In this document: piece after piece, positions 712 to 41,327 of the stretch
How positions within the stretch are numbered: the first letter of the stretch is position 1
Layout of the letters: every line of letters starts with the position of its first letter
Virus record (IMG/VR): IMGVR_UViG_3300027983_000028
Span: 1 to 44,195 of that record
Direction: 5' to 3' (one strand)
Source of the DNA: a virus
DNA length: 44,195 nucleotides
Notes under the pieces: model-generated
What the model was told of the DNA's origin: nothing
Databases searched by the model: none
Seen by the model: the letters and a program-made list of their open reading frames with translations, nothing else
Translations under genes and position numbers: made by a program

Positions 712-2735
712 TCTTGTTCCTCGGATTTATGTTTCATTGTACCTTCGTCTGTCATGAAGAATCCTGCTCTTGTGGAGGTTCTCTGGATGACACCTGTTAA
801 GTAGTTGTATGTACTGTCTGGCATATTCTTCGTGAGAGCTCCTGTTAGTTTCTTCAATACAGGATGGTTGGCCCACAGTGTTGTAGCTGGATAAGTAATC
901 GTCGCTGCTGCTGCCATTCCTAGTTTACCAAACCCTGTACTCTGTGACTCATTAATGGAAGACAGATATTTGTTAAGCCCTTGTATAGACTTGTAGCTCT
1001 CTCCTAATAGCTCTGGTGTTTTTGTAGCTTCTGATGTTCGCTGTATAAATGATGTTAAATTAATCTTACCGTCTACATCTGAGGCTTCTAGCGCTTCAGC
1101 AATCTTAGCGGCTCTCATTGCTTTGAGTCCCTCGCCGTCCATCAATCCCATCACCTTAGACTTGTTTGTCATCTCTGTATTGCTCATAACATCTTTGATT
1201 AACTTACGAGCTGCTATTTCGTCCACCATAGCTTTCTTAATCTTGGGCATTTCTTCTTGCATCTTATAGAACCTAGAGCTATATTCTTTGGCTGCCATGA
1301 AGTCCTTAAGGTCGTCTCCTGATAGGCTCTTCTGTATTGGGTCCATTAAGCGTGTTCTAATATCTGATAGTTGTCTCACGACGTCCCTGCCCACACCACC
1401 TGTGTCTGCTTTCCTCACACTGGATATAACATCACCTATTGTAGACTGAGCGTTCTTCACGTCATCCACTGTCATGTTCTTCTTAGATAGTATTTTAGTT
1501 AGGATGGTTTGTGATCTGTTGGCTAATGGAATGGCTGACTTAACGTCATTAATTACGGCAAACGCTTCTGAAGCTGTTGACTTAGCCATTTCTGAATCCA
1601 CCATAACGCCTCTGAAAGGTTTGTTCCACATATCCGATTGGCCTTTCTTGATGTTCTGTAGTGTACCTTGTAGCTTAGCTCCTGCGAATTTAATTAAGTC
1701 TTTAGAATACACAGCGTCATTGCCTCCGGATACTTTTCGAACCACTTCGTGTATGTCGTCACCAATACCCTCTATCTGTCGAACGCGTTTCCCTGCTCCA
1801 GTCATTGATGGCAATGAGTCGAAGAACTTGTTGGCAAATGTCTTGCTGGCTCCTTTTTCCATAACGTCACGAGGGAGCAATTCACTAATAGTTTCCCTCC
1901 CTTGCTGAAGCTTTCTAGATTTCTCTGCCCACGTTCCTATCTTAGCTCCCACCATTGGTAGGGCATACGACATAGGGCTGCTTAGAGCGTTTCCTGCTGC
2001 TTCTGTGTTGAGGAGCTGATCTGGATTCTCTGGGTCGTATCGTTGTGATTCCTGAGCTGCAAACAATCCTGCTCCCCCCACACCTGCTGCTCCGTACTTG
2101 GCTGCTGTCTTAAGACCCATAGGAGCCATCTTACCAGCTAGTGAAGCACCCTTGAGCACACCGCCATAGGGACCTGCCATTGGAAGCGTAGCAAGCATCT
2201 CTCCAGCTATCTCTCCTCCCTTAGCATATCCACCTAGTCCGGCTTCTGTGTTTATGGCTTGTTCTTCATCTAATCGTTTATCTGCTGCTTTGAGATTGGC
2301 CCTGCCTTTCTCAGAGGGAATCATTGAGAGGAGCTTATATGTAAAATGTGTTACGCCTCTATGCACCCCTGTATTAATAGCATCCAATTTCTTCATGAAC
2401 CCTGGTTCTTCTCGTTTTTGTTCGACCGGCTTTTCCAAATCCATAATTCCGTCTGGAAGCTTCCCTCCTGCTACAACATTTTCTGACCCTGGAGGAGGCC
2501 CTAGATCCATCACTCCCTGGGGCAACTGATTGCTGCTAGGGGATGAGGGTGGCGCCGAACCAAAACTAGTTAGTGACGCTCCGTATTGATCGCCTGAAGG
2601 GCCCTGTCGAGCCATCTCCGGGTCGCTAAGCATTGGGGAAGGCCTACCCTGTGGGTATGTTGTCTCTACACCTGTAGGGCCTTGAGGGCCTATTGGTGAG
2701 GGCATTCCGTAATTTAGTTCATTTGGATTCTGCAT
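708..2735 (-). CDS. Ejection protein, P22 gp16-like position
   Basis: A 675-aa protein, the largest in the ejection block and last before the tail fibre, as P22 gp16 is. Residues 1-110 are rich in Pro, Gly and Gln. Residues about 165-260 are a Gly/Ala-rich hydrophobic stretch that could insert in a membrane. The remainder is mostly helical and charged, with another hydrophobic stretch near residues 605-625. Proteins at this position are carried in the virion and released with the DNA to help it cross the host envelope. The call rests on gene order, size and composition, since no conserved catalytic motif is visible. RBS: AAGG eight bases before ATG. Confidence 0.6.
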   Translation of the reverse strand: MQNPNELNYGMPSPIGPQGPTGVETTYPQGRPSPMLSDPEMARQGPSGDQYGASLTSFGSAPPSSPSSNQLPQGVMDLGPPPGSENVVAGGKLPDGIMDLEKPVEQKREEPGFMKKLDAINTGVHRGVTHFTYKLLSMIPSEKGRANLKAADKRLDEEQAINTEAGLGGYAKGGEIAGEMLATLPMAGPYGGVLKGASLAGKMAPMGLKTAAKYGAAGVGGAGLFAAQESQRYDPENPDQLLNTEAAGNALSSPMSYALPMVGAKIGTWAEKSRKLQQGRETISELLPRDVMEKGASKTFANKFFDSLPSMTGAGKRVRQIEGIGDDIHEVVRKVSGGNDAVYSKDLIKFAGAKLQGTLQNIKKGQSDMWNKPFRGVMVDSEMAKSTASEAFAVINDVKSAIPLANRSQTILTKILSKKNMTVDDVKNAQSTIGDVISSVRKADTGGVGRDVVRQLSDIRTRLMDPIQKSLSGDDLKDFMAAKEYSSRFYKMQEEMPKIKKAMVDEIAARKLIKDVMSNTEMTNKSKVMGLMDGEGLKAMRAAKIAEALEASDVDGKINLTSFIQRTSEATKTPELLGESYKSIQGLNKYLSSINESQSTGFGKLGMAAAATITYPATTLWANHPVLKKLTGALTKNMPDSTYNYLTGVIQRTSTRAGFFMTDEGTMKHKSEEQE

Positions 2736-2737
2736 GG

Positions 2738-3784
2738 TTACATACCTTGTAAGAATAATTTACGTTCGGCTGCTCGTCTGTTCTCTAACCCTTTAAGTAC
2801 TTTACCGCCTGCCTTGTTGTATTTCAACATGTTATCTGCGGCTCCTTGGTAATCCCCACTGTTTAGTGAGTCAATGACGGAAGAGTTCTTAGTCCAGCCT
2901 GGGCCTACATTATATGTGAACGAAGCTAATGCGTCAACTTGGTTTTGTGTTAACGGCACCGTCACAGCTGATTTGATGTGTTTGGTGTATTCTGGGATTC
3001 GTTGATTGAGCATGTCCATGGCGTCTGATTTTGAAATGCTGGCATCTTTACCTGGAGCCTTGCTGCCGTAGCCGTAACTCCATTGTTTATAATCCCAATA
3101 TGGTTTTTCATAGAAGCCTTCAAACTGGGCTATAGACTTAGCTGCATTGTCTGAAGCTTTCCATGTGCCCGGTTCAAAGAACTTGTTACCACTTGGGTCC
3201 ACTCCTGTGTCATTAGCTAGTTGTAAATCGCCTTGGAATGAAGCACCCTTTGGAGCTCCTTCAATTGTTTTTGTCATGTTAATATCTCCTGGTCCTGCTG
3301 CACGAGCTTTCCCTACCCCGAATGCGTTTGCCATTGTGTCCATTACTTTCGATGGAATACCGCCTTGTGGCTTAGGGGGACGTTGAGGCATTTGCATTCC
3401 ACCATCTAGCGGACTTGTCATTTGATTCATGCGTTGCATTGCATCCGGTATGCCGCCTTGGTTTCCCATTGGTTGTCCCATTGGTCCCTGCATCATAGGA
3501 GCGTTGTTCCCCATTGGATTAGCCATTTGAGGCATACGTTGTTGGCCTGACAGTAGTCCTCCCATTGGGCCACCCATTTGAGGTTGCTGCCCGTAGCCTG
3601 TAGGGTTCATCATTGGTACAGGTCGTTGAGGGGCAATCTTCAAGGGGGCTCCTGCTCCCATTCCTTGGCCTGGTATACCTAGTGCTCCTCCAATGCCTTG
3701 TCCTACGGCTCCCAAGGCTCCACCAACAGCACCTCCGAGTCCTCCTAAGGCTTGTCCTATTCCGCTTAATAATCCACCTAACAT
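2738..3784 (-). CDS. Virion-associated lysozyme (GH24-like domain with Gly/Met/Pro-rich N-terminus)
   Basis: 348 aa. Residues 1-150 are low-complexity, rich in Gly, Met, Pro and Gln with an early GGLGGAVGGALGAVGQGIGG-like hydrophobic run. Residues about 215-348 look like a T4-type lysozyme (GH24): catalytic Glu in AQFEGFYEKPYWD, then SYGYGS where many relatives have TIGYG, NQVDALASFTYNVG, and the closing NRRAAERKLF. It lies among ejection genes and overlaps the upstream stop by one base (TAATG). A peptidoglycan-cutting tool for entry is therefore likelier than a classical endolysin, though it could serve both. There is no cleavable signal peptide of standard form. Confidence 0.75.
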   Translation of the reverse strand: MLGGLLSGIGQALGGLGGAVGGALGAVGQGIGGALGIPGQGMGAGAPLKIAPQRPVPMMNPTGYGQQPQMGGPMGGLLSGQQRMPQMANPMGNNAPMMQGPMGQPMGNQGGIPDAMQRMNQMTSPLDGGMQMPQRPPKPQGGIPSKVMDTMANAFGVGKARAAGPGDINMTKTIEGAPKGASFQGDLQLANDTGVDPSGNKFFEPGTWKASDNAAKSIAQFEGFYEKPYWDYKQWSYGYGSKAPGKDASISKSDAMDMLNQRIPEYTKHIKSAVTVPLTQNQVDALASFTYNVGPGWTKNSSVIDSLNSGDYQGAADNMLKYNKAGGKVLKGLENRRAAERKLFLQGM

Positions 3785-29549: not shown

Positions 29550-31496
29550 ATGACTACAATCGCTTGTGATTTTGAGACACATCTAATAGGACCGGGAGCA
29601 TTGTTTCCTAAGCCTGTGTGCCTTTCAGCATATGATGGAGAAAATACATTCCTATATAGAGGGAAGGAAATGCAGGAGCATTTAACAAAGTGGCTGAAGA
29701 ACGACACAATCATAGCACACAATGCTGTATTCGAATGTGGGGTGATTATTCACCATTTCCCAGAGCTAACAGAATTAGTGTTCCAAGCCCTAGAAGAGGG
29801 AAGAATTATATGTACAAAGATACGTGAGAACTTAATAGATTTACTGAGAGAGAAGCCAACCAATAGAGCCACATTAGCAGCATGTGTTCTCCACTATTAT
29901 AATAAGGACATATCAGCAAGCAAAGGAGAGGACGCCTGGAGACTTCGCTACGCAGAGCTAGAAGATGTCGAGGAGTGGCCACAAGAGGCAATAGACTATG
30001 CTATAGATGACTCCATATGGGCATACAAAGTGTACTATAACCAAGACGACATTAACAGCAATGCATCTCTTGTGTCAGCAGTGTATCTCAACTTAATGGG
30101 AGCCACAGGATTTAATATAGACCAAGAACGTGTGAAGAATTTAAAAGAAGAAATATTCGTATACTTAAGACCGAGATACAACTACCTAGAAAAGCTCGGC
30201 TATTGCGACTTCTTACCAGGTAAGGAACAACCACGTAAACAAATGAAGAAGCTGAAAGAATACATAGCAGAGCTACCAATCAATAAGAAATACACAGCCA
30301 AGGGAGCCATCAAGGCTACAGCTGAGGCCCTAGAATTTTACCAATCACAAACAACAGATGATATATTAAAAGCATTCTCTGAAATAGCTGTGTACGAGAA
30401 AGTGCTTTCGGCGTTCATATCTAGGTTATCAGGAAATGAAATAATATATTCACAGTACAGCACAACTAAATCAACAGGACGTACATCATCAAGTAGCTCT
30501 AGATTGTTTCCATCATTGAACATACAACAGATGCCACGACAAGTGCCGAACGTATCATATGATATACGAAATTGTTTTGTGCCACGACCTGGGTTTAAAA
30601 TGTTGTCCATTGACTATGCAGGCCTTGAATTATGTGCAACAGCACATCAATTGTATAAAACATATGGACGAAGCAGCATGAGGGACATGCTCAACAGTGG
30701 GGATAAGCCTACAGATATGCATAGCAGGTTGGCAGCTAGATTGAAGGGTGTATCATACGAAGAGTTCATGGTGAAGATAGATAAGGACTTGAGGCAGAAA
30801 GCTAAGCCAATCAATCTAGGATTTCCGGGAGGTATTGGATACGAGACAATGAGAACGCTATTGTGGAGAGATGGAATCAAGACAGAATACACAATACTGC
30901 ATACAGAGAAGAAGAAACGAGAACTATATTACTATCAAACAGAGCTGGCGATGCCAGACCTAAGAATAGCACGTATCAAGAAAGACGAATATGCATTAGT
31001 GAAAGATGAATTAGTAACCTTAAAGAAAGAACTGTTTGCCCTATATCCAGAGCTAGAGTGGTTTCTAAAGGACGGGCATAATAAGTTTTTAGACGGAACA
31101 TCTAAGTGGGTGAAGAACGAGTTTGACGAATGGGAAGAAGAGCCTATGTATACATATGAAGCATATGGACATAAACGTCCTTGGTGCACATACACAGCTT
31201 TGTGTAATGGATATCTAATGCAAACCCCGTCAGCTATGGGAGCCAAGAAGGCTGTCAATCGTGTGATGCGTAAGTACTATAAACACCCAGACGTAAAGCC
31301 ATTAGCATTCATACACGATGAAATCCTATTCGAAATTCGAGAATCTAGAATGGACATAGTGGACGACTTAGCAGATATAATGATAGACGAGATGCAAAAA
31401 GTGCTCTCGTCAGTTCGCATCACGGTGGAAGCATCTATGATGGACTACTGGCAGAAAGCAGATGGGTTCTGGACTAAGCAATATTGGAGTGAATAG
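29550..31496 (+). CDS. Family A DNA polymerase with 3'-5' exonuclease
   Basis: 648 aa, T7 size. Exonuclease motifs DFETH (7-11), [11 protein letters not shown] and [13 protein letters not shown]. Polymerase motif [12 protein letters not shown] (Asp355), motif [18 protein letters not shown] (Arg415, Lys419), motif C HDEILFEI (Asp590). The residue equivalent to E. coli Phe762 is Leu423. The motif continues GFPGG instead of the usual GVLYG. No 5'-3' exonuclease domain. Main phage replicase. Confidence 0.92.
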
Positions 31497-31497
31497 C

Positions 31498-31926
31498 ATG
31501 AAGATAAAACTACTGACAAACACAGCAAGAATACCTAGATACGAAACAGCAGAGGCAGCAGGGATGGACCTAAGAGTGGACTCTACAAGTCCTATAAATA
31601 TATCACCAGGTGATACATTAATGTTAAGCACAGGCGTGGCGATACATATAGACAACCCAGGAATAGCAGCAATGATATTGCCCAGGTCGTCATTAGGACA
31701 TAAGCACGGCATTGTACTAGGCAACTTAGTAGGACTAATAGATTCAGACTACCAAGGAGAACTTAAAATATCTTGCTGGAACAGAAGCGACAAAGAGTAC
31801 ACAATAGCACCGGGGGAGCGAATAGCTCAGATAGTTTTCACGAACGTAATAAGCCCAGAGTTCCAGCTGGTAGAATCGTTTGAGGAAACAGCTAGAGGGG
31901 AAGGCGGATTCGGGAGCACTCAATGA
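31498..31926 (+). CDS. dut: dUTPase
   Basis: 142 aa from ATG 31498. The five family motifs are visible: [39 protein letters not shown] and [11 protein letters not shown] homotrimer that turns dUTP to dUMP and pyrophosphate, keeping uracil out of phage DNA and feeding dTMP synthesis. It overlaps the next gene by four bases. Confidence 0.92.
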
Positions 31927-32573
31927 AAACATACATCGTTAACACAGAAGAGGAATGGCACGCCCTACGAGGCACATGCATCACGGCCAGTAATGCCGCG
32001 ACACTAGTGGGATGCAATCCATACTCGTCACCCAATAAGATGAGGAACCCAGACCCATTCACAGGGAACTCCTTCACAATAACAGGACAGATGCTAGAAC
32101 CTGTAGTGGTTGACATGACCAATCGTGTTCTTGGAACAGAGTTTCAATTGTTTGAACAGGAGAAAAACCAGAAAGTTTTCTACACAGAAGGGCGGCTGGG
32201 AGCCACCCCGGATGCATTTGACGACAACGATAATCTATTGGAGTGTAAGAGCACAAGACCACACACTTTCCATAAATACAGCGGCTACCCACCTTTAACT
32301 TATTTGATACAAACACAAGTGCAAATGGAGTGTACAGGCCTGAATACATGCTACCTTTCGATAATGTCAACAGACCTGACACAAGCAACGTTTGAAATGA
32401 AATGGCCAATAGTTGTGTACAAAGTGTGGAAAAATGATCAACTATGTGCTATACTACAAGAAGAAGCAAAGAGGTACATGGAAAACGATACGTTCAGGGT
32501 TAAGTCTGCCACTAAGAAGAAAGCGCAGCTCTTACTAAGTTTATGTTATGAAAGGGTACACTTCGGAGGATAA
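31923..32573 (+). CDS. YqaJ-type exonuclease/recombinase
   Basis: 216 aa. [18 protein letters not shown] and GQMLEPVV, then [19 protein letters not shown] (the Asp and Glu-x-Lys of the nuclease core) and [13 protein letters not shown]. These are the marks of YqaJ/lambda-exonuclease relatives. It likely resects DNA ends for recombination or concatemer formation. No recombinase annealing partner is obvious, except possibly the SSB-like protein. Confidence 0.85.
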
Positions 32574-33604: not shown

Positions 33605-35518
33605 ATGAAACTACTTGATGCATACAAGAAGAAGTATCAGCAACATAGGTCGGAGAAGATGACCATGGAGCAATACCTCACCTTGGCCAAAAAGGATAGC
33701 TCCGTATATAGTTCTCCTGCTGAACGTATGTTAAAAGCAATAGGTGAGCCGACGAAGATAGATACGGCTAAGAATCCTAGACTAAGCAGACTGTTCGGTA
33801 ATCGTGTTATTAGAACCTACGATGCATTTAAAGACTTCTACGGACTTGAGGAAGTGGTGGAGCGAATCGTCTCCTTCTTTAAACATGCTGCACAGAACTT
33901 AGAGGAAGCAAGACAAATTCTATATCTATTAGGACCTGTAGGGAGTGCTAAGTCGTCTCTAGTGGAAACACTAAAATCTCTCATGGAACAAGAGCCGATA
34001 TTTATCCTAGCGGATAAGGATGGGAACCCAAGTCCACTACATGAAAGTCCATTAGGTATGCTAAGTAAGGACTTATTAAAGGAGATGGGGATACATTCGT
34101 ACACGACAATAGCAAGTCCTTGGGCAACTAAACGCCTAAAAGAATACGACGGTGACTTGTCAATGTTCAATGTAATTAAACGATATCCTAGTCAGTCGGA
34201 TCAAGTGGCAATATCTAAGACAGAGCCAGGCGATGAGAACAACCAGGACATCTCAACATTAGTAGGTAAGGTGGATATTCGGAAACTTGAACATCATGCA
34301 CAAGACGATCCGGATTCATACAGCTACAGTGGTGGATTATGTCAGGCCAATCAAGGCATGATGGAGTTTGTAGAGATGTTTAAAGCTCCCATTAAAATGT
34401 TACATCCGTTGCTAACAGCTACACAGGAACGTAATTATAAAGGGACAGAAGCCATTTCAGCCATTCCGTTTCAGGGCGTAATCGTAGCCCATTCCAATGA
34501 ATCAGAGTGGGATACATTTAAGAACAATAAGAACAATGAAGCGTTCTTAGATAGGGTGTATACGGTGGAGGTGCCTTATTGCTTACAAGTGGACGAAGAG
34601 CAGAAGATTTATAAGAAGCTTGTAAGTAACAGCACGTTGGTGAATGCGCCTGTAGCACCTAACACATTAGAGATGTTAGCAGAGTTCTGTATTCTTACAC
34701 GGTTGGAAATACCAGAAAACTCTGACGTTGTATCTAAGATGAAAGTGTATAACGGTGAGAACATCAAAGAGAAGGACGCTAGAGCTAAATCGTTCCAAGA
34801 GTATAAAGATGGTTCGTCACTCGATGAAGGGTTCTTTGGATTCTCCACACGATTGGCATACAAAGTACTTGCCGAGGTATATAACTTCGACGCTGAAGAG
34901 ATAGCTGCTGACCCTGTACATCTGTTGTACGTACTAGAAAAGACAGTTAATAAGAGCCGACTAAATGAGGAATTGTCCGAAAAATATTTGGCATTTATTA
35001 AAACGTACTTGGCTCCCAACTATGCTAAGAAAGTGGGTAAGGACATTCAGACGGCCTATTTAGATAGTTATCAAGAGTTTGGACAAGCCATGTTTGATAG
35101 ATACATTGTATTTGCAGATCATTGGATACAAGACAATGACTATAGAGATGTGGATACAGGCCAGATGTTTGACAGGGAACAACTCAGCGAAGAGCTCAAT
35201 AAAATTGAGAAGCCAGCTGAGATAAGCAATCCTAAGGACTTTAGACACGAGGTGGTTAATTTTGCTCTTAGATATCAAGCGACACATAAGGGACACAATC
35301 CTAAGTGGACAGCTTATGAGAAACTAAGACGTGTTATTGAAGCTACAATGTTCAGTAAGACACAAGACTTGCTACCAGTGATATCATTTGCAGGACATGG
35401 TGACTCTTCAGATAAGTCTAAGCACGAGAGTTTCATCAATCGAATGCAAGAGCTAGGATATACGGAACGTCAAGTGAGACGTGTGGTAGAATGGCACTTA
35501 CGTACGCTGAAATCATAA
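33605..35518 (+). CDS. prkA: PrkA-family serine protein kinase
   Basis: 637 aa from ATG 33605 (RBS GGAGAGG); E. coli YeaG has 644. Walker A GPVGSAKS (about 110-117), AAA+ region with HPLLTATQERNYKG, and the characteristic FFGFSTRLAYKVLAEVYNFD segment, then NPKDFRHEVVNFALRYQATH and GYTERQVRRVVEWHL. Cellular homologues phosphorylate proteins under starvation and are co-expressed with yeaH and spoVR, exactly the order here. No truncation. Confidence 0.92.
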   Translation: MKLLDAYKKKYQQHRSEKMTMEQYLTLAKKDSSVYSSPAERMLKAIGEPTKIDTAKNPRLSRLFGNRVIRTYDAFKDFYGLEEVVERIVSFFKHAAQNLEEARQILYLLGPVGSAKSSLVETLKSLMEQEPIFILADKDGNPSPLHESPLGMLSKDLLKEMGIHSYTTIASPWATKRLKEYDGDLSMFNVIKRYPSQSDQVAISKTEPGDENNQDISTLVGKVDIRKLEHHAQDDPDSYSYSGGLCQANQGMMEFVEMFKAPIKMLHPLLTATQERNYKGTEAISAIPFQGVIVAHSNESEWDTFKNNKNNEAFLDRVYTVEVPYCLQVDEEQKIYKKLVSNSTLVNAPVAPNTLEMLAEFCILTRLEIPENSDVVSKMKVYNGENIKEKDARAKSFQEYKDGSSLDEGFFGFSTRLAYKVLAEVYNFDAEEIAADPVHLLYVLEKTVNKSRLNEELSEKYLAFIKTYLAPNYAKKVGKDIQTAYLDSYQEFGQAMFDRYIVFADHWIQDNDYRDVDTGQMFDREQLSEELNKIEKPAEISNPKDFRHEVVNFALRYQATHKGHNPKWTAYEKLRRVIEATMFSKTQDLLPVISFAGHGDSSDKSKHESFINRMQELGYTERQVRRVVEWHLRTLKS

Positions 35519-35525
35519 TAAAATG

Positions 35526-35542
35526 TGGGGCTAAATGCCCCA
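35526..35542 (+). terminator. Attenuator-like hairpin between prkA and yeaH
   Basis: TGGGGC-TAAAT-GCCCCA followed by TTATTG. Five to six GC-rich pairs with a poor U-tract, in the only gap of the operon. Likely reduces, but does not end, transcription. Confidence 0.5.
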
Positions 35543-35557
35543 TTATTGAGGATTAAC

Positions 35558-36691
35558 ATGACTATTATCGATAGAAGAGACAGCAAGAAAAAGTCTGTTG
35601 GGAATAGACAGAGATTCATACGTCGATATAAAAAGCATATCAAACGTAACATACAAGACATTTCTTCAGATAAGGGGATTACAGATGTACTTAACGACCG
35701 TACCATTACCATACCCGATGAGGATGTATCTGAGCCTTCCTTCGGACACGACCCAGCTAGAGGAAAAAGCAAGCACGTACTTACAGGTAATCGAACTCTT
35801 AAGAAGGGCGACCGTGTCGACCAGCCTCCCAAGGACGACGGGAAAGGACCTCAGGGCAGTGACTCGGGAGATGGCTTTGATGAGTTTACGTTCACACTAA
35901 CTAAGGAAGAATTCCTTGAGTTATATTTTAGCGACATGGAACTACCTGATTTCATTAAGGAAAGAATAATAGGATCTACCAAAGAGAAGTGGAAGCGACA
36001 CGGCTATTCTAAAGACGGTATTCCATCACGTCTCGACCTACCTAAAACACTTAAGCAAGCACTGGCTAGAAAAATAGCCACTAAGTCTAAGAGGTTCTTA
36101 GATAACGTAGACATGAGGTATAAACACTTTACGAAGCAGCCTTTCCCAATTAGACATGCGGTGATGTTCTGCATCATGGATGTGTCTGCTTCGATGGGTG
36201 CCAAAGAGAAAGAACTATCTAAAAGGTTCTTCTTATTGTTATATCTGTTCCTACACAAGAGCTATGACAGCATTGATATAAGATTTGTACGTCACACACA
36301 AGAAGCTGATGAAGTGGAGGAGAAAGAGTTCTTTTACGGAACACATACAGGCGGCACAGTGGTATCTTCCGGTCTCAATCTGGTAAATAAAATCATTGAT
36401 GAGGAATATAACTTAGAGCAGACGAACATATACATATCACAGGCATCAGATGGGGACAACTTCTCTTATGACACAGCTAACGTGATAGACTCGTTACATG
36501 AATTGTTAACAAAAGTGCAATACTTTGTATACGTTCAAGTGGATACATATCAAGGCAGAAGACATTACGGAGACAGCTTGTGGGAAATATATGAGCCATT
36601 GATTAAGCAACACGCTAATTTCAATGCCGAGCTTGTGGAGCAGGCCAGTGACATCTATCCTGCATTACATAACCTATTCACAGGAGAGTAG
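35558..36691 (+). CDS. yeaH: YeaH-family (DUF444) von Willebrand A-like protein
   Basis: 377 aa (E. coli YeaH 427) from ATG 35558, with GAGG upstream. N-terminus DRRDSKKKSVGNRQRFIRRY, as in the family. The metal site DVSASMG (Asp208, Ser210, Ser212) is intact, and GTHTGGTVVSSGL follows. Partner of PrkA in bacteria. The N-terminal linker is shorter than in host proteins. Confidence 0.9.
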   Translation: MTIIDRRDSKKKSVGNRQRFIRRYKKHIKRNIQDISSDKGITDVLNDRTITIPDEDVSEPSFGHDPARGKSKHVLTGNRTLKKGDRVDQPPKDDGKGPQGSDSGDGFDEFTFTLTKEEFLELYFSDMELPDFIKERIIGSTKEKWKRHGYSKDGIPSRLDLPKTLKQALARKIATKSKRFLDNVDMRYKHFTKQPFPIRHAVMFCIMDVSASMGAKEKELSKRFFLLLYLFLHKSYDSIDIRFVRHTQEADEVEEKEFFYGTHTGGTVVSSGLNLVNKIIDEEYNLEQTNIYISQASDGDNFSYDTANVIDSLHELLTKVQYFVYVQVDTYQGRRHYGDSLWEIYEPLIKQHANFNAELVEQASDIYPALHNLFTGE

Positions 36692-36692
36692 A

Positions 36693-39038
36693 ATGACTAA
36701 GCCATTATATGAAGGGGCGGAGTGGAACGAGCAGCTCGTGAAAGACACATGGGCTACGATTGATAAAATAGCTAAGGAGAAGTTCGGCCTTGATTATTAT
36801 CCAGAACAGATAGAGTTAATATCTAGTGAGCAGATGCTTGATTGCTATTCTTCTGTAGCTATGCCATTGATGTACAACCATTGGAGCTTCGGTAAGTCAT
36901 TCATTCAGAACGAGAAGAGCTACCGTAAAGGACAGACAGGACTTGCCTACGAGGTCGTAATCAATACAAATCCTTGCATTGCTTACCTGGTAGAAAACAA
37001 CACCATGACGCTGCAAGCACTTGTATTGGCTCATGCGTTAGCAGGTCACGGATCTTTCTTCAAGAATAATTACTTATTTAAGAAGTGGACAGATGCGGAC
37101 ACAATTCTTGACTACCTCCAATATGCTAAAAATTATATTACCAAATGTGAGGAACAGCACGGAGAGGAAAACGTAGAAGCATTCCTAGACAGTTGTCACA
37201 GTTTGCAATACAACTCAGTGGATAAATATAAGAAACCAGGTAAGCTTAAGTCAGAGCTGCAATATAAACGACAACAAGAATGGGAGCAATATCATGAGCA
37301 GACGTTCAATGATTTATGGCGAACTGTGCCCGACAAGAAGGGGCCAGCAACAAAGGCTAAGGCGTCAACACAGTTCCCAGAGGAAAACATTCTATACTTT
37401 ATGGAGAAACATTCTCCTGTTCTTGAAACCTGGCAGCGAGAGATCTGTAGAATAGTTCGTAAATTAGCTCAGTATTTTTATCCTCAAATGCAGACAAGTT
37501 TAATGAACGAAGGTTGGGCTTGTCAAAAAGGAGACTCGGAATATTTATCCCCAACAGGATGGAAACGAATCGATGAGTATGAAGGTGGTGAAGTGGCTCA
37601 ATATAATGAAGATGGCACAGTGGAATATGTAACGCCAACTAACTATATTGTAGAAGACAACAAGGAGTTAATACATTTCGAAGGAGAGAGCTTTGACCAA
37701 TGTGTAACACCCGACCATAGAATTCCTTATATAACATCGAGAGGAAACTTAAACGTTAAAGAGGCTGCTCTACTGCCTGATAACGGACTGTTCATTAAAG
37801 CAGGGCGATTAAAAGGAAAAGGGCTAGACATATCAGAGTTGGAATTAAGATTGATGGTGGCGATTAGTGCTGATGGACACTTCATTCCTAGAACCAACAC
37901 TAATTATGTACAAATGGGATTCACCAAAGAGAGGAAAATAAATCGACTGGAGTGGTTATTAAAAGAAACTGGAATAGAATATAAGAAAACCCAAGGGACA
38001 CAAGGCAGAACATGGATTAACTTCTATGCACCTGAAAGAAACAAGCAATTGTCTGAGTACTACTCTGCATCACAAGAGCAATTAAATGTAATAGTGGAGG
38101 AAGCAACTAAGTGGGATGGTACGGAAAAATCAGGCAGGAGCATCTACTTCGGCAATAATAAGAACAACGCTGATTTCATCCAGTGGGCCATGTCCATGAC
38201 AGGTAGTTCAGCATCGCTTAGACAAGAAGGTAATCTGTATATAGTAGAGAAGCTTCTACGAAGCGTCACCTGTATAGAGAGTACGTCCAGGAAAGAGCTA
38301 GAGGGGCTACATACGGTGTATTGCTTCACAGTACCTTCCGGGATGTTCATGACACGAAGGAACGACAAGGTGAGTGTTACAGGTAATTGTTTTGTACATC
38401 ACATGTTGATGACAGAGATGCACGACCAGGAGTATTTAACAGACGGAGCATATCTAGAATTCTTGCACAACCACTCTAATGTAGTGGCCCAACCCAATTG
38501 GACAGCTAAGCATTACAGTGGCATTAACATATATGCTTTAGGCTTCGCCATGTTTGAAGATATCCGGAGAATATGTTCAAATCCAACAGAAGAAGACAGG
38601 AAGTGGTTTCCGAATATTGTTGATACAGATTGGTTAAAAACTACAAAGTATGTTATGATGAACTTCAGAGACGAATCCTTCGTTCTTCAGTTCTTGTCTC
38701 CTAAGATCATTAGGGATTTTAAATTGTTCACGTTGGAGTTCAATGAGGACAATAACTATCTAGAGGTGGCAGCGACACACGACGATGATGACATATTGAA
38801 AATAAGAAAGAACTTGGCAGAGCACTATGACGTTAACAAGAGGGTGCCGAAAGTGGAGATAGTGGGAGTAGATTGGGATGATGATCGTACACTACATATG
38901 GAGTACACATCAGAAGATGACAAAGTGTTGGAATACAGCACAATGAGCAAGACAGTGGGACATATTAGAAAGCTGTGGGGGTTTGACGTTGAGATGAACT
39001 ACGTAGACAAAGATGGGAACGAGGTGGACATTGTATGA
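36693..39038 (+). CDS. spoVR: SpoVR/YcgB-family protein interrupted by an intein
   Basis: 781 aa precursor; 492 aa after removal of the 289-aa intein (E. coli YcgB 510). ATG 36693 has GGAG upstream. Exteins: LAHALAGHGSFFKNNYLF and DSCHSLQYNSVDKY, then MNEGWA / CFVHHMLMTEMHD, the family signature with probable metal ligands Glu and His-His. C-terminal LEYSTMSKTVGHIRKLWGFD. Third gene of the prkA-yeaH-spoVR set. Confidence 0.92.
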   Translation: MTKPLYEGAEWNEQLVKDTWATIDKIAKEKFGLDYYPEQIELISSEQMLDCYSSVAMPLMYNHWSFGKSFIQNEKSYRKGQTGLAYEVVINTNPCIAYLVENNTMTLQALVLAHALAGHGSFFKNNYLFKKWTDADTILDYLQYAKNYITKCEEQHGEENVEAFLDSCHSLQYNSVDKYKKPGKLKSELQYKRQQEWEQYHEQTFNDLWRTVPDKKGPATKAKASTQFPEENILYFMEKHSPVLETWQREICRIVRKLAQYFYPQMQTSLMNEGWACQKGDSEYLSPTGWKRIDEYEGGEVAQYNEDGTVEYVTPTNYIVEDNKELIHFEGESFDQCVTPDHRIPYITSRGNLNVKEAALLPDNGLFIKAGRLKGKGLDISELELRLMVAISADGHFIPRTNTNYVQMGFTKERKINRLEWLLKETGIEYKKTQGTQGRTWINFYAPERNKQLSEYYSASQEQLNVIVEEATKWDGTEKSGRSIYFGNNKNNADFIQWAMSMTGSSASLRQEGNLYIVEKLLRSVTCIESTSRKELEGLHTVYCFTVPSGMFMTRRNDKVSVTGNCFVHHMLMTEMHDQEYLTDGAYLEFLHNHSNVVAQPNWTAKHYSGINIYALGFAMFEDIRRICSNPTEEDRKWFPNIVDTDWLKTTKYVMMNFRDESFVLQFLSPKIIRDFKLFTLEFNEDNNYLEVAATHDDDDILKIRKNLAEHYDVNKRVPKVEIVGVDWDDDRTLHMEYTSEDDKVLEYSTMSKTVGHIRKLWGFDVEMNYVDKDGNEVDIV
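37521..38387 (+). mobile_element. Intein in SpoVR
   Basis: 289 codons, residues 277-565 of the precursor. Begins Cys-Gln-Lys-Gly-Asp, has the block B motif VTPDHRI (Thr and His) and block F VYCFTVPSGMFM, then VSVTGN before Cys+1 of the second extein. The penultimate residue is Gly where His is commonest. A LAGLIDADG-like motif, LMVAISADGHF, is at 37851-37883; a second clear copy is lacking, so the homing nuclease looks decayed or minimal. Splicing residues appear intact. Confidence 0.9.
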
Positions 39039-39397
39039 GGAAACTTAAAGAGCGCCCATATTGTAGCAACACATTAACTGAGGCAGGATTCTTCGGTATG
39101 ATACGGTCGAACCTAAGACGGCTCTCCCTGAGATGGAAACCTAGAGGTGACTATCTGAATTCTATTAGAAGGCCTAAGGAGAACGGAGGGAGAAGCAAAT
39201 GGGAATATCCATGTCAAGTGTGCAAGCAGTGGTTCATTAGAGCTCACGTCGAGGTGGATCATATAGAGCCTTGTGGCAGCCTAAGAAGCTTTGAAGACAT
39301 AGGACCATTTGTTAAAAGAATGTTATGTGAGAAGGACGGATTCCGTGTATTATGTAAAGAATGTCACCAAGTAGTTACGAACGAGGGGAGGAAATGA
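39035..39397 (+). CDS. HNH endonuclease
   Basis: 120 aa. CQVC, then HVEVDHIEPCGS and RVLCKECHQVV give an HNH core with two CxxC zinc pairs. It overlaps the SpoVR stop as ATGA. It may be a free-standing homing enzyme, possibly linked to the adjacent intein, or a packaging-associated HNH protein, although terL is 18 kb away. Confidence 0.8.
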   Translation: MRKLKERPYCSNTLTEAGFFGMIRSNLRRLSLRWKPRGDYLNSIRRPKENGGRSKWEYPCQVCKQWFIRAHVEVDHIEPCGSLRSFEDIGPFVKRMLCEKDGFRVLCKECHQVVTNEGRK

Positions 39398-39690: not shown

Positions 39691-39783
39691 ATGAACATAA
39701 TAGTTAAAGTGGGAATAGTGGATGGGTACATAGTTGCCATATGCTTAGCGGCTCATGCGATAAGTCAAGGGGTGGTGATATGA
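39691..39783 (+). CDS. 30-aa membrane peptide
   Basis: MNIIVKVGIVDGYIVAICLA starts a mostly hydrophobic peptide whose TGA overlaps the ATG of the ClpP-like gene. No strong RBS. Might only couple translation. Confidence 0.4.
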   Translation: MNIIVKVGIVDGYIVAICLAAHAISQGVVI

Positions 39784-40424
39784 AGCGTATTCTAGCTGTA
39801 ATACTGGTGGGGGCGTTAAGCCTTTTTTTATACTCTCAATACGAGAAAAAACTAGAGACAGAAGCGTATACTGTACAGGGGTATAACATTTATTTAACGT
39901 CAGAGATATTTGACACTGACGCATACAGAGGACTCATTGTATTTATTAATGAGCACCAAGACGTTAAAGAGATGAATGTGTATCTAGCAGGTAACGGAGG
40001 TAGTGTGACAAGCTTATTGCAATTGGTGAATGCCATGCGTGCGTCTCCCACTAAGTTTCACGGAGTAGTGTATGGGGACGTATATTCGGCACATGCTGCG
40101 TTGGCCATGAATATGGATTCGCTTACTGTCGTTAACGAAAATATATTGTTTATGTTCCATCGACCAGCTATAGATGTTAATGGTGTAAATGTATTACTAC
40201 CTGTAGTGTGCAACATGGTACCAGAAGGTAGTGTGGACAGGGGAGTGGACATGAAAGGCAAGTGCGAAAGGTATATGAAAGCCGTAGAGAACAGCTCTGA
40301 CGCAATAGTGGGGGCAGCAATCATCAATGCAATGACAGACGAAGAGGTGCAGCGGTATAAAGACGGGGACGACGTTATTCTAACCTATGAAGAAATAGAG
40401 GAGAACAGACATGCAAACCAATAA
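39780..40424 (+). CDS. Membrane-anchored or exported ClpP-like protease
   Basis: 214 aa from ATG 39780 (GGGGTGG upstream). Residues 1-19 (MKRILAVILVGALSLFLYS) form a signal anchor. The core repeats the ClpP layout: AGNGGSV (70-76), Ser103 in GDVYSAHAALAM, His127 in LFMFHRPA. The mature domain would face the periplasm. Only distantly like the first ClpP-like protein. Possible signal-peptide peptidase-like function instead. Confidence 0.7.
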   Translation: MKRILAVILVGALSLFLYSQYEKKLETEAYTVQGYNIYLTSEIFDTDAYRGLIVFINEHQDVKEMNVYLAGNGGSVTSLLQLVNAMRASPTKFHGVVYGDVYSAHAALAMNMDSLTVVNENILFMFHRPAIDVNGVNVLLPVVCNMVPEGSVDRGVDMKGKCERYMKAVENSSDAIVGAAIINAMTDEEVQRYKDGDDVILTYEEIEENRHANQ

Positions 40425-40572
40425 GAAATCAGAAGAGGTGACAGAGTTGGAGCTACTGCCTCATACAGCTAAGAAAACACATGAGGCTGTACTAGCAGTT
40501 AATGACAAACGACTAATCGTTCCGGTGGTGGGATGTCGATATGCTGAACTTAAGTGGGAGCAATTCTTATGA
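40411..40572 (+). CDS. 53-aa hypothetical protein
   Basis: Overlaps the ClpP-like gene end by 14 bases and the next start by four (ATGA). RBS AGGAG eight bases upstream. Includes VNDKRLIVPVVGCRYAELKW. Unknown function. Confidence 0.5.
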   Translation: MQTNKKSEEVTELELLPHTAKKTHEAVLAVNDKRLIVPVVGCRYAELKWEQFL

Positions 40573-41327
40573 AACATTTTTTCATTCCTGATGTCCAAGC
40601 TAAAGACGGCGTCAACTTAGATCATCTCAAGTGGATAGGTCAATACATTGTAGATAAGCAGCCAGAGGTTATTATACAGATTGGTGACTTTGCTGACATG
40701 CCTAGCCTATCTAGTTATGACAAGGGTAAGAAATCGTTTGAAGGCCGTCGCTATAAAAAAGACATAGCAGCAGCGAGGGTGGCGATGGATTATCTGCTAG
40801 GCCCTATGAAGGAGTTCAACAAGAAGGCAGCAGAGAACCATAGAGCACGCTACAAGCCACGAATGGTGATGTGCCTAGGCAATCACGAGGCTCGAATCAA
40901 TCGTGCAGTGGAAGAGTCCGCAGAGCTTGACGGCGTAATAGGCTATCATGACCTGCCATATGAAGACTGGGAAGTACATGATTTCTTAAAACCTGTCTTT
41001 ATTGATGGAGTGTGCTATACTCATTATATGTCCAACCCTATGTCAGGACGACCACTTAGTGGTCAGACGCATAATGTATTGAAGAATGTAGGACATAGCT
41101 TTGTTGTAGGACACACACAGAAGTTAGACGTAGCGACACGACACTTAGCATCTGGGGAACAACAATGGGGAATCATTGCGGGAGCATGTTATTTACATGA
41201 TGAAGAGTATAAGGGATATCAAGGAAACCATCATTGGCGTGGCGTCATAATGTTGAATGATGTTAAGGAAGGCTCGTTCGACCCGATGTTTATTTCGTTA
41301 GACTACTTGAGGAGACGTTATGGATAA
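40569..41327 (+). CDS. Metallophosphoesterase (calcineurin-like)
   Basis: 252 aa from ATG 40569. Metal motifs in order: PDVQ (Asp8), GDFAD (Asp40), GNHEAR (Asn105, His106), THY and GHTQK. A nuclease or phosphatase acting on DNA or nucleotides is likely; substrate unknown. GTG at 40554 is an alternative start, but the ATGA overlap supports the ATG. Confidence 0.8.
   Translation: MKHFFIPDVQAKDGVNLDHLKWIGQYIVDKQPEVIIQIGDFADMPSLSSYDKGKKSFEGRRYKKDIAAARVAMDYLLGPMKEFNKKAAENHRARYKPRMVMCLGNHEARINRAVEESAELDGVIGYHDLPYEDWEVHDFLKPVFIDGVCYTHYMSNPMSGRPLSGQTHNVLKNVGHSFVVGHTQKLDVATRHLASGEQQWGIIAGACYLHDEEYKGYQGNHHWRGVIMLNDVKEGSFDPMFISLDYLRRRYG

Follow-up and report, generated by a model that had tools for sequence, protein, structure and literature searches.

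Introduction

The genes prkA (yeaG), yeaH and spoVR form a highly conserved starvation operon of bacterial cells that is biochemically unexplained. In Escherichia coli, YeaG and YeaH jointly quiesce metabolism under nitrogen starvation (PMC4664914, PMC10954441), and in Rhizobium etli the three genes make up one operon, in which prkA shows the strongest induction by (p)ppGpp of any gene (PMC3188799). Cellular PrkA and YeaH put a brake on metabolism and thereby preserve viability during starvation, a phenotype known for cells only (PMC4664914, PMC3188799). Single members of the trio have also been met in viruses: a study of a marine virome from an oxygen-minimum zone counted spoVR among the auxiliary metabolic genes and read it as a spore gene (PMC8940887), SpoVR and PrkA were recorded in the Ralstonia jumbo phage RsoM2USA (PMC8504454), and in cultured Thermus phages the annotations of the genes mostly read serine kinase or AAA ATPase, SpoVR, and hypothetical protein. 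Here, we describe a complete prkA-yeaH-spoVR trio, with an intein in SpoVR, at positions 33605–39038 of the IMG/VR record IMGVR_UViG_3300027983_000028, a podovirus-like virus record of 44,195 bases that was analysed over its whole length and is referred to below as the window.

Organization of the trio

The three genes are adjacent on the plus strand in the cellular order, and all are intact according to a Pfam scan. PrkA (33605..35518, 637 residues) consists of an AAA+ ATPase domain, likened to MoxR/NorQ from an AlphaFold2 (AF2) model, and a C-terminal helical domain (AAA_PrkA, E = 4.6e-157; PrkA C-terminal domain, 1.1e-58). YeaH (35558..36691, 377 residues) is a von Willebrand factor A (VWA) protein of the DUF444 family (7.1e-125). 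SpoVR (SpoVR, 1.1e-145; SpoVR_C, 2.1e-12) is encoded as an N-extein (36693..37520) that covers Pfam SpoVR profile positions 1–269 and ends in NEGWA, its boundary being set by the intein match, and a C-extein (38388..39038) that begins with CFVHHMLM and carries the second SpoVR stretch and SpoVR_C. Between them lies an intein of 289 residues (37521..38387), so that the precursor has 781 residues and the predicted spliced product 492. All three proteins exceed their NCBIfam equivalog cut-offs. The genes start with ATG codons at 33605, 35558 and 36693, each with a purine-rich ribosome-binding site upstream (AAGGAGAGG in the case of prkA). The E-values, together with the recurrence of the trio at the same locus in related phages, exclude a chance origin.

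A preliminary description of this DNA had proposed the trio in its cellular order; Pfam and NCBIfam bear this out, and the start codons with their ribosome-binding sites make the proposed interval exact. The motifs that it cited (Walker A, MIDAS and SpoVR NEGWA...HH) are all present. Its statement that the genes are near full length holds in that they are intact, but not for SpoVR, which is overlong owing to the intein between NEGWA and FVHH.

The Walker A motif of PrkA, GPVGSAKS, has alanine instead of the usual glycine before the lysine, as is also the case in the Thermus phage phiLo, and the residues K116, R232 and K426, the importance of which was demonstrated in E. coli YeaG (PMC4664914), are conserved. 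The metal-ion-dependent adhesion site (MIDAS) of YeaH is complete (D219, S221, S223, T278 and D309), with the DxSxS, T and D elements invariant in an alignment of 21 sequences. YeaH of the window and its relatives lacks a charged coiled-coil insert of ∼40 residues that is found in cellular YeaH, a short remnant of which is present in one aligned sequence (L006). In SpoVR, H116, H121 and E280 (the glutamate of the NEG-A motif) are invariant among 64 sequences, as is G120.

Conservation and spread in viruses

The minus-strand arm of the window carries the terminase, portal, other head, tail and lysis genes, and the plus-strand arm, within which the trio lies, carries AAA+, family A polymerase, dUTPase and YqaJ/RecE-like exonuclease genes. 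The GC content across the trio (40.7–41.5%) is similar to that of the neighbouring genes, with no compositional border. Twelve other viral contigs encode a PrkA that is 71–79% identical to that of the window and, where the contig is long enough, display the order polymerase, exonuclease, (small open reading frames), prkA, yeaH, spoVR, (HNH), phosphoesterase. Every contig found that covers the locus and has a polymerase at least 57% identical to that of the window contains prkA, and PrkA is the best conserved among the proteins compared at the locus (71–79%, versus 57–63% for PolA). The contig of 44,161 bases to which L135 and L142 belong ends in a terminal direct repeat of 127 bp with the joint inside prkA, as expected of a closed genome, and a terminase was detected on the longer relatives. 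The module is thus complete, conserved and embedded in a podovirus-like genome, in agreement with the preliminary description of it as phage-borne.

The trio is missing from L140, the polymerase of which is 45% identical, and from L145 (exonuclease, short open reading frame, HNH, phosphoesterase) and L141 (exonuclease, HNH, other open reading frames, phosphoesterase); the last two have only the phosphoesterase neighbourhood in common with the window. Ratios of nonsynonymous to synonymous substitution rates are saturated between most members of the lineage and were used for the pair L138/L139 only, giving 0.013 for PrkA and 0.17 for YeaH. YeaH is the least conserved of the trio, and used alone as a probe for close relatives it gave no match. 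In L003 (11250–12056), L004 (12603–13397) and L005 (9706–10497), a further metallophosphoesterase gene is located between yeaH and spoVR.

Quick trees that included huge-phage and gamma-, alpha- and betaproteobacterial sequences, with limited cellular sampling, place the podovirus-like lineage in one clade for each of PrkA, YeaH and SpoVR (Shimodaira–Hasegawa-like approximate likelihood-ratio test, SH-aLRT, 100 each). The closest cellular PrkA found is only ∼61–62% identical to that of the window, which indicates that the gene was not picked up recently. A single clade for all viral sequences was rejected (approximately unbiased test, p-AU = 0.003), so the viral clade predicted in the preliminary description holds for the window lineage but not for viruses as a whole. 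Given this sampling, the sequences suggest that viruses acquired the trio several times.

The presence of the trio in a phage is also less exceptional than it had first seemed. A profile search identified 292 SpoVR relatives in viral contigs, and in ∼76 of the best 80 of these loci prkA, yeaH and spoVR follow in order; in several of the others the start of spoVR is near the locus end and the upstream genes may be cut off. Terminase was present on 11 of 20 tested contigs with viral SpoVR loci, so that viral status is not established for all of them. In the Thermus phages and in L031–L035 the order is yeaH-spoVR-prkA. A complete trio is also present on the Novosphingobium plasmid p4 (L134), which is typed as conjugative, showing the trio to be mobile on other elements too.

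Structural models of PrkA and SpoVR

In the AF2 model of PrkA (predicted local distance difference test, pLDDT, 84; predicted template-modelling score, pTM, 0.79), the top matches in VIA are NorQ from NorQ–NorD VWA complexes (Z = 14.8, 243–246 residues, root-mean-square deviation 3.6–3.7) and CbbQ (Z = 14.3). The matches establish an AAA+ core; other AAA+ classes follow within 1–2 Z units, and the MoxR/NorQ-type assignment is to be taken as a lead, not proof. Residues ∼437–637 are modelled as all-helical. No Pkinase match was found in PrkA with Pfam at a threshold of E = 0.01, and PrkA therefore lacks the profile-recognisable kinase domain of Hanks-type Ser/Thr kinases.

SpoVR was modelled from the relative L004 (pLDDT 84, pTM 0.82). 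Its VIA list is dominated by zinc metallopeptidases (LTA4H, tricorn F3, M32, M3 and ACE) with Z = 8–12.5. On the basis of this list and the conserved residues, from which the zincin lead is drawn, the two histidines and the glutamate may weakly be considered candidate metal ligands in a zincin-like fold. Sequence searches for solved relatives of SpoVR and YeaH returned none that was convincing.

The SpoVR intein

The intein splits the invariant NEG-A motif of SpoVR, and its excision restores the conserved motif as NEGWA/CFVHH (the slash marks the intein boundary). It matches phage inteins in RtcB ligases, primases and PhoH from end to end with up to 34% identity; 204 phage records span at least 80% of it, residues 1–289 being covered among the matches listed, and one matching host protein is annotated as 'intein-containing topoisomerase primase'. 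The intein signatures Cys1, a C-terminal Asn (Asn289), a +1 nucleophile Cys, a block-B TxxH (TPDH) and GN/C are present. The penultimate histidine is absent, the intein ending in Gly-Asn (VTGN); L221, L222 and L302, which are related inteins of phages, end in the same way, and the ending thus represents a known variation that does not disqualify the element. The stretch LMVAISADGHF resembles a LAGLIDADG motif, with no endonuclease match in Pfam. The intein is predicted to be self-splicing and to be located in the predicted active or metal site.

No intein is present in the SpoVR genes of the lineage relatives. Different SpoVR inteins are found in L026 and in the huge phage LR756504 two residues earlier, at NEG/C. 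Counting that of the window, the motif has thus been invaded at least twice separately, which suggests that it is a critical site. The NEG/C inteins of other types in L026 (13298–16069) and L116 (16543–18450) comprise one that bears LAGLIDADG and one mini-intein, and the SpoVR of L025 reads NEGCATF with no intein. A related intein is located in the PrkA of L302 (∼2663–3628) beside the sensor-1 asparagine (LSH/C...VTGN/SNEQE). No description of SpoVR inteins was found in the searchable literature.

Proposed function

We propose that a bacterial prkA-yeaH-spoVR operon was captured long ago, set among the replication genes of an uncultured podovirus-like lineage and kept vertically as a functional core module. 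PrkA, most likely no signalling kinase, would form a MoxR/NorQ-type pair with YeaH, in which PrkA is the AAA+ motor and YeaH, with the MIDAS, the VWA adaptor. Once splicing has removed the intein from the predicted metal site of the SpoVR precursor, PrkA–YeaH would remodel or activate SpoVR, a predicted zincin-fold metal binder, as NorQ–NorD and CbbQ–CbbO do with their metalloprotein clients. The role of the trio in infection would then most likely be to supply a brake in nutrient-limited infected cells, keeping them viable and productive for long enough for slow viral replication. Modelling supports the NorQ-like fold of PrkA and, more weakly, the zincin-like fold of SpoVR, and operon context and the SpoVR model point to SpoVR as the putative client. 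It is plausible, as had been conjectured in the preliminary description, that the trio allows replication in slow-growing cells. We assign a probability of roughly 0.5 to the joint reading of a long-kept phage core module, an AAA+/VWA machine acting on SpoVR and quiescence supplied to nutrient-limited infected cells. A stronger version is tentative at best: that phages have repeatedly captured an AAA+/VWA/metalloprotein 'quiescence machine' as a core replication-region module which holds starving infected cells in a viable, productive, low-metabolism state, with SpoVR as a new zincin-fold metalloprotein and client of PrkA–YeaH and with its predicted metal site as a repeated intein target.

Several points weigh against the proposal. 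SpoVR is a putative client of PrkA–YeaH, and in the Enterobacterales loci covered no spoVR was found next to yeaGH. The Foldseek search with the SpoVR model gave no significant match in the PDB, and since the protein is largely helical, VIA Z scores of 8–12.5 count as moderate. The glutamate of HExxH is absent from SpoVR, the residue after the first histidine being A, V or C and never E in the sequences inspected, so that SpoVR was not filed as a gluzincin peptidase. Kinase activity of recombinant YeaG has been reported, according to its citation in PMC4664914. Finally, starvation of the host is assumed.

The phage trio could also act in the opposite direction, competing with or poisoning the host PrkA–YeaH–SpoVR and thereby releasing the brake and waking a starved host. 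Mixed complexes are conceivable, the phage proteins being ∼60% identical to the cellular ones, and E. coli lacking yeaGH recovers faster after starvation (PMC4664914). However, a single gene would suffice for a poison subunit, which would also tolerate a dead site, whereas all three genes and the tested catalytic residues are under strong constraint, and we regard such an override as improbable, if less so than the other alternatives.

Phosphorylation of host proteins by PrkA, reprogramming host stress signalling, is less probable again. Besides the family name and the in vitro report on YeaG, it draws on the loss of function of K426A in E. coli YeaG (PMC4664914), and the equivalent of K426 is kept in the phage protein. 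Set against this are AAA+ remodelers as the best structural matches, the all-helical C-terminal part, the lack of a Pfam kinase match and B. anthracis PrkA, for which a 2026 study detected no kinase activity (PMC13001217). The suggestion in the preliminary description that the module rewires host phosphorylation is weakened by the same observations, and the cited YeaG report and the importance of K426 speak for it.

Slightly less probable still is a protective module, directed against superinfection of the infected cell or against host defence: the location among early/replication genes and the broad distribution over unrelated phages would suit it, but no PADLOC defence model matches any trio protein, the phenotype of the cellular trio is one of starvation and no defence role was found in the literature consulted on the trio. 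Host DNA mis-joined to, or by chance carried in, a single phage, an objection that the preliminary description had itself raised along with absence from related phages and a host-like composition, is already refuted for the window lineage: no fewer than 12 relatives share the locus with the trio, one of them has terminal repeats, a GC border is missing and the clade is separate. Such cases do occur, since an Enterobacter phage LAU1 record (L121, MN688132.1; 1–3308) opens with a yeaG-yeaH pair that falls among Enterobacterales in the PrkA tree and is probably host DNA flanking a prophage.

The cellular operon stands to gain from the phage set. Its repeated capture and strong conservation in phages, often complete and ordered, argue that the three proteins are one machine, and that viruses infecting nutrient-limited cells profit from control over host quiescence. 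Testable hypotheses follow: that PrkA and YeaH are a NorQ/CbbQ-type AAA+/VWA motor instead of a kinase system, that SpoVR contains a metal site, and that inteins mark functionally critical residues in SpoVR (NEG/C and NEGWA/C) and at sensor 1 of one viral PrkA.

Neighbouring genes

Upstream of the trio on the plus strand, the family A DNA polymerase (29550..31496; Pfam DNA_pol_A, 2.7e-22) and the YqaJ/RecE-like exonuclease (31923..32573) are conserved in the relatives. Downstream, a free-standing HNH endonuclease gene (39035..39397, plus strand; phrog_1985, 2.1e-24) overlaps the spoVR stop codon, and an HNH gene is also near the trio in L003, L004, L005, L142, L149 and L174. The metallophosphoesterase (40554..41327, plus strand; phrog_221, 2.6e-61) is a conserved downstream neighbour in the relatives. 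A ClpP-like protease with a hydrophobic N-terminus is encoded at 39741–40424, shortly 3' of the trio, and in L145 a weakly proteasome-like open reading frame is located 5' of its HNH gene.

Comparison with known systems

No paper that treats SpoVR, YeaG and YeaH together, and no description of the phage trio as a module or of its viral spread, was found in the searchable literature, which leaves out subscription journals and with them, probably, the phiYS40 genome paper. Single trio genes in viruses and the Thermus phage annotations are already known; the module as such, its viral spread and the SpoVR inteins are apparently new. In the available parts of the reports on the oxygen-minimum-zone virome (PMC8940887) and RsoM2USA (PMC8504454) the genes are treated singly, with no module, clade or intein described.

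The operon of cellular Proteobacteria (for example Shewanella, Pseudomonas and R. etli) has the same three families in the same order with the key residues conserved. It differs from the window in sequence (identities of ∼55–62% for PrkA, ∼33–45% for YeaH and ∼46–53% for SpoVR), the phage proteins forming a separate clade, and the window is further set apart by the YeaH without coiled-coil insert, the SpoVR intein and the setting among phage replication genes. The cultured Thermus phages phiYS40, phiLo, MN1 and Lalka8 likewise carry all three families in one cluster, but these are unrelated phages with the order YeaH-SpoVR-PrkA and only ∼25–30% identity. Huge phages (LR756504, LR745206 and several IMG/VR clades) share the order, a PrkA that is 56–59% identical and, in some cases, a SpoVR intein, but form separate clades and have the intein site two residues earlier. 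NorQ–NorD and CbbQ–CbbO, which are MoxR AAA+ and VWA metalloprotein activases, provide the best matches to the PrkA model and, like the trio, pair the ATPase with a VWA partner, the gene for which encodes a MIDAS; PrkA differs from them in lacking membership at the sequence level and in its additional C-terminal helical domain, and the client and activity of the trio are predicted by analogy with these systems.

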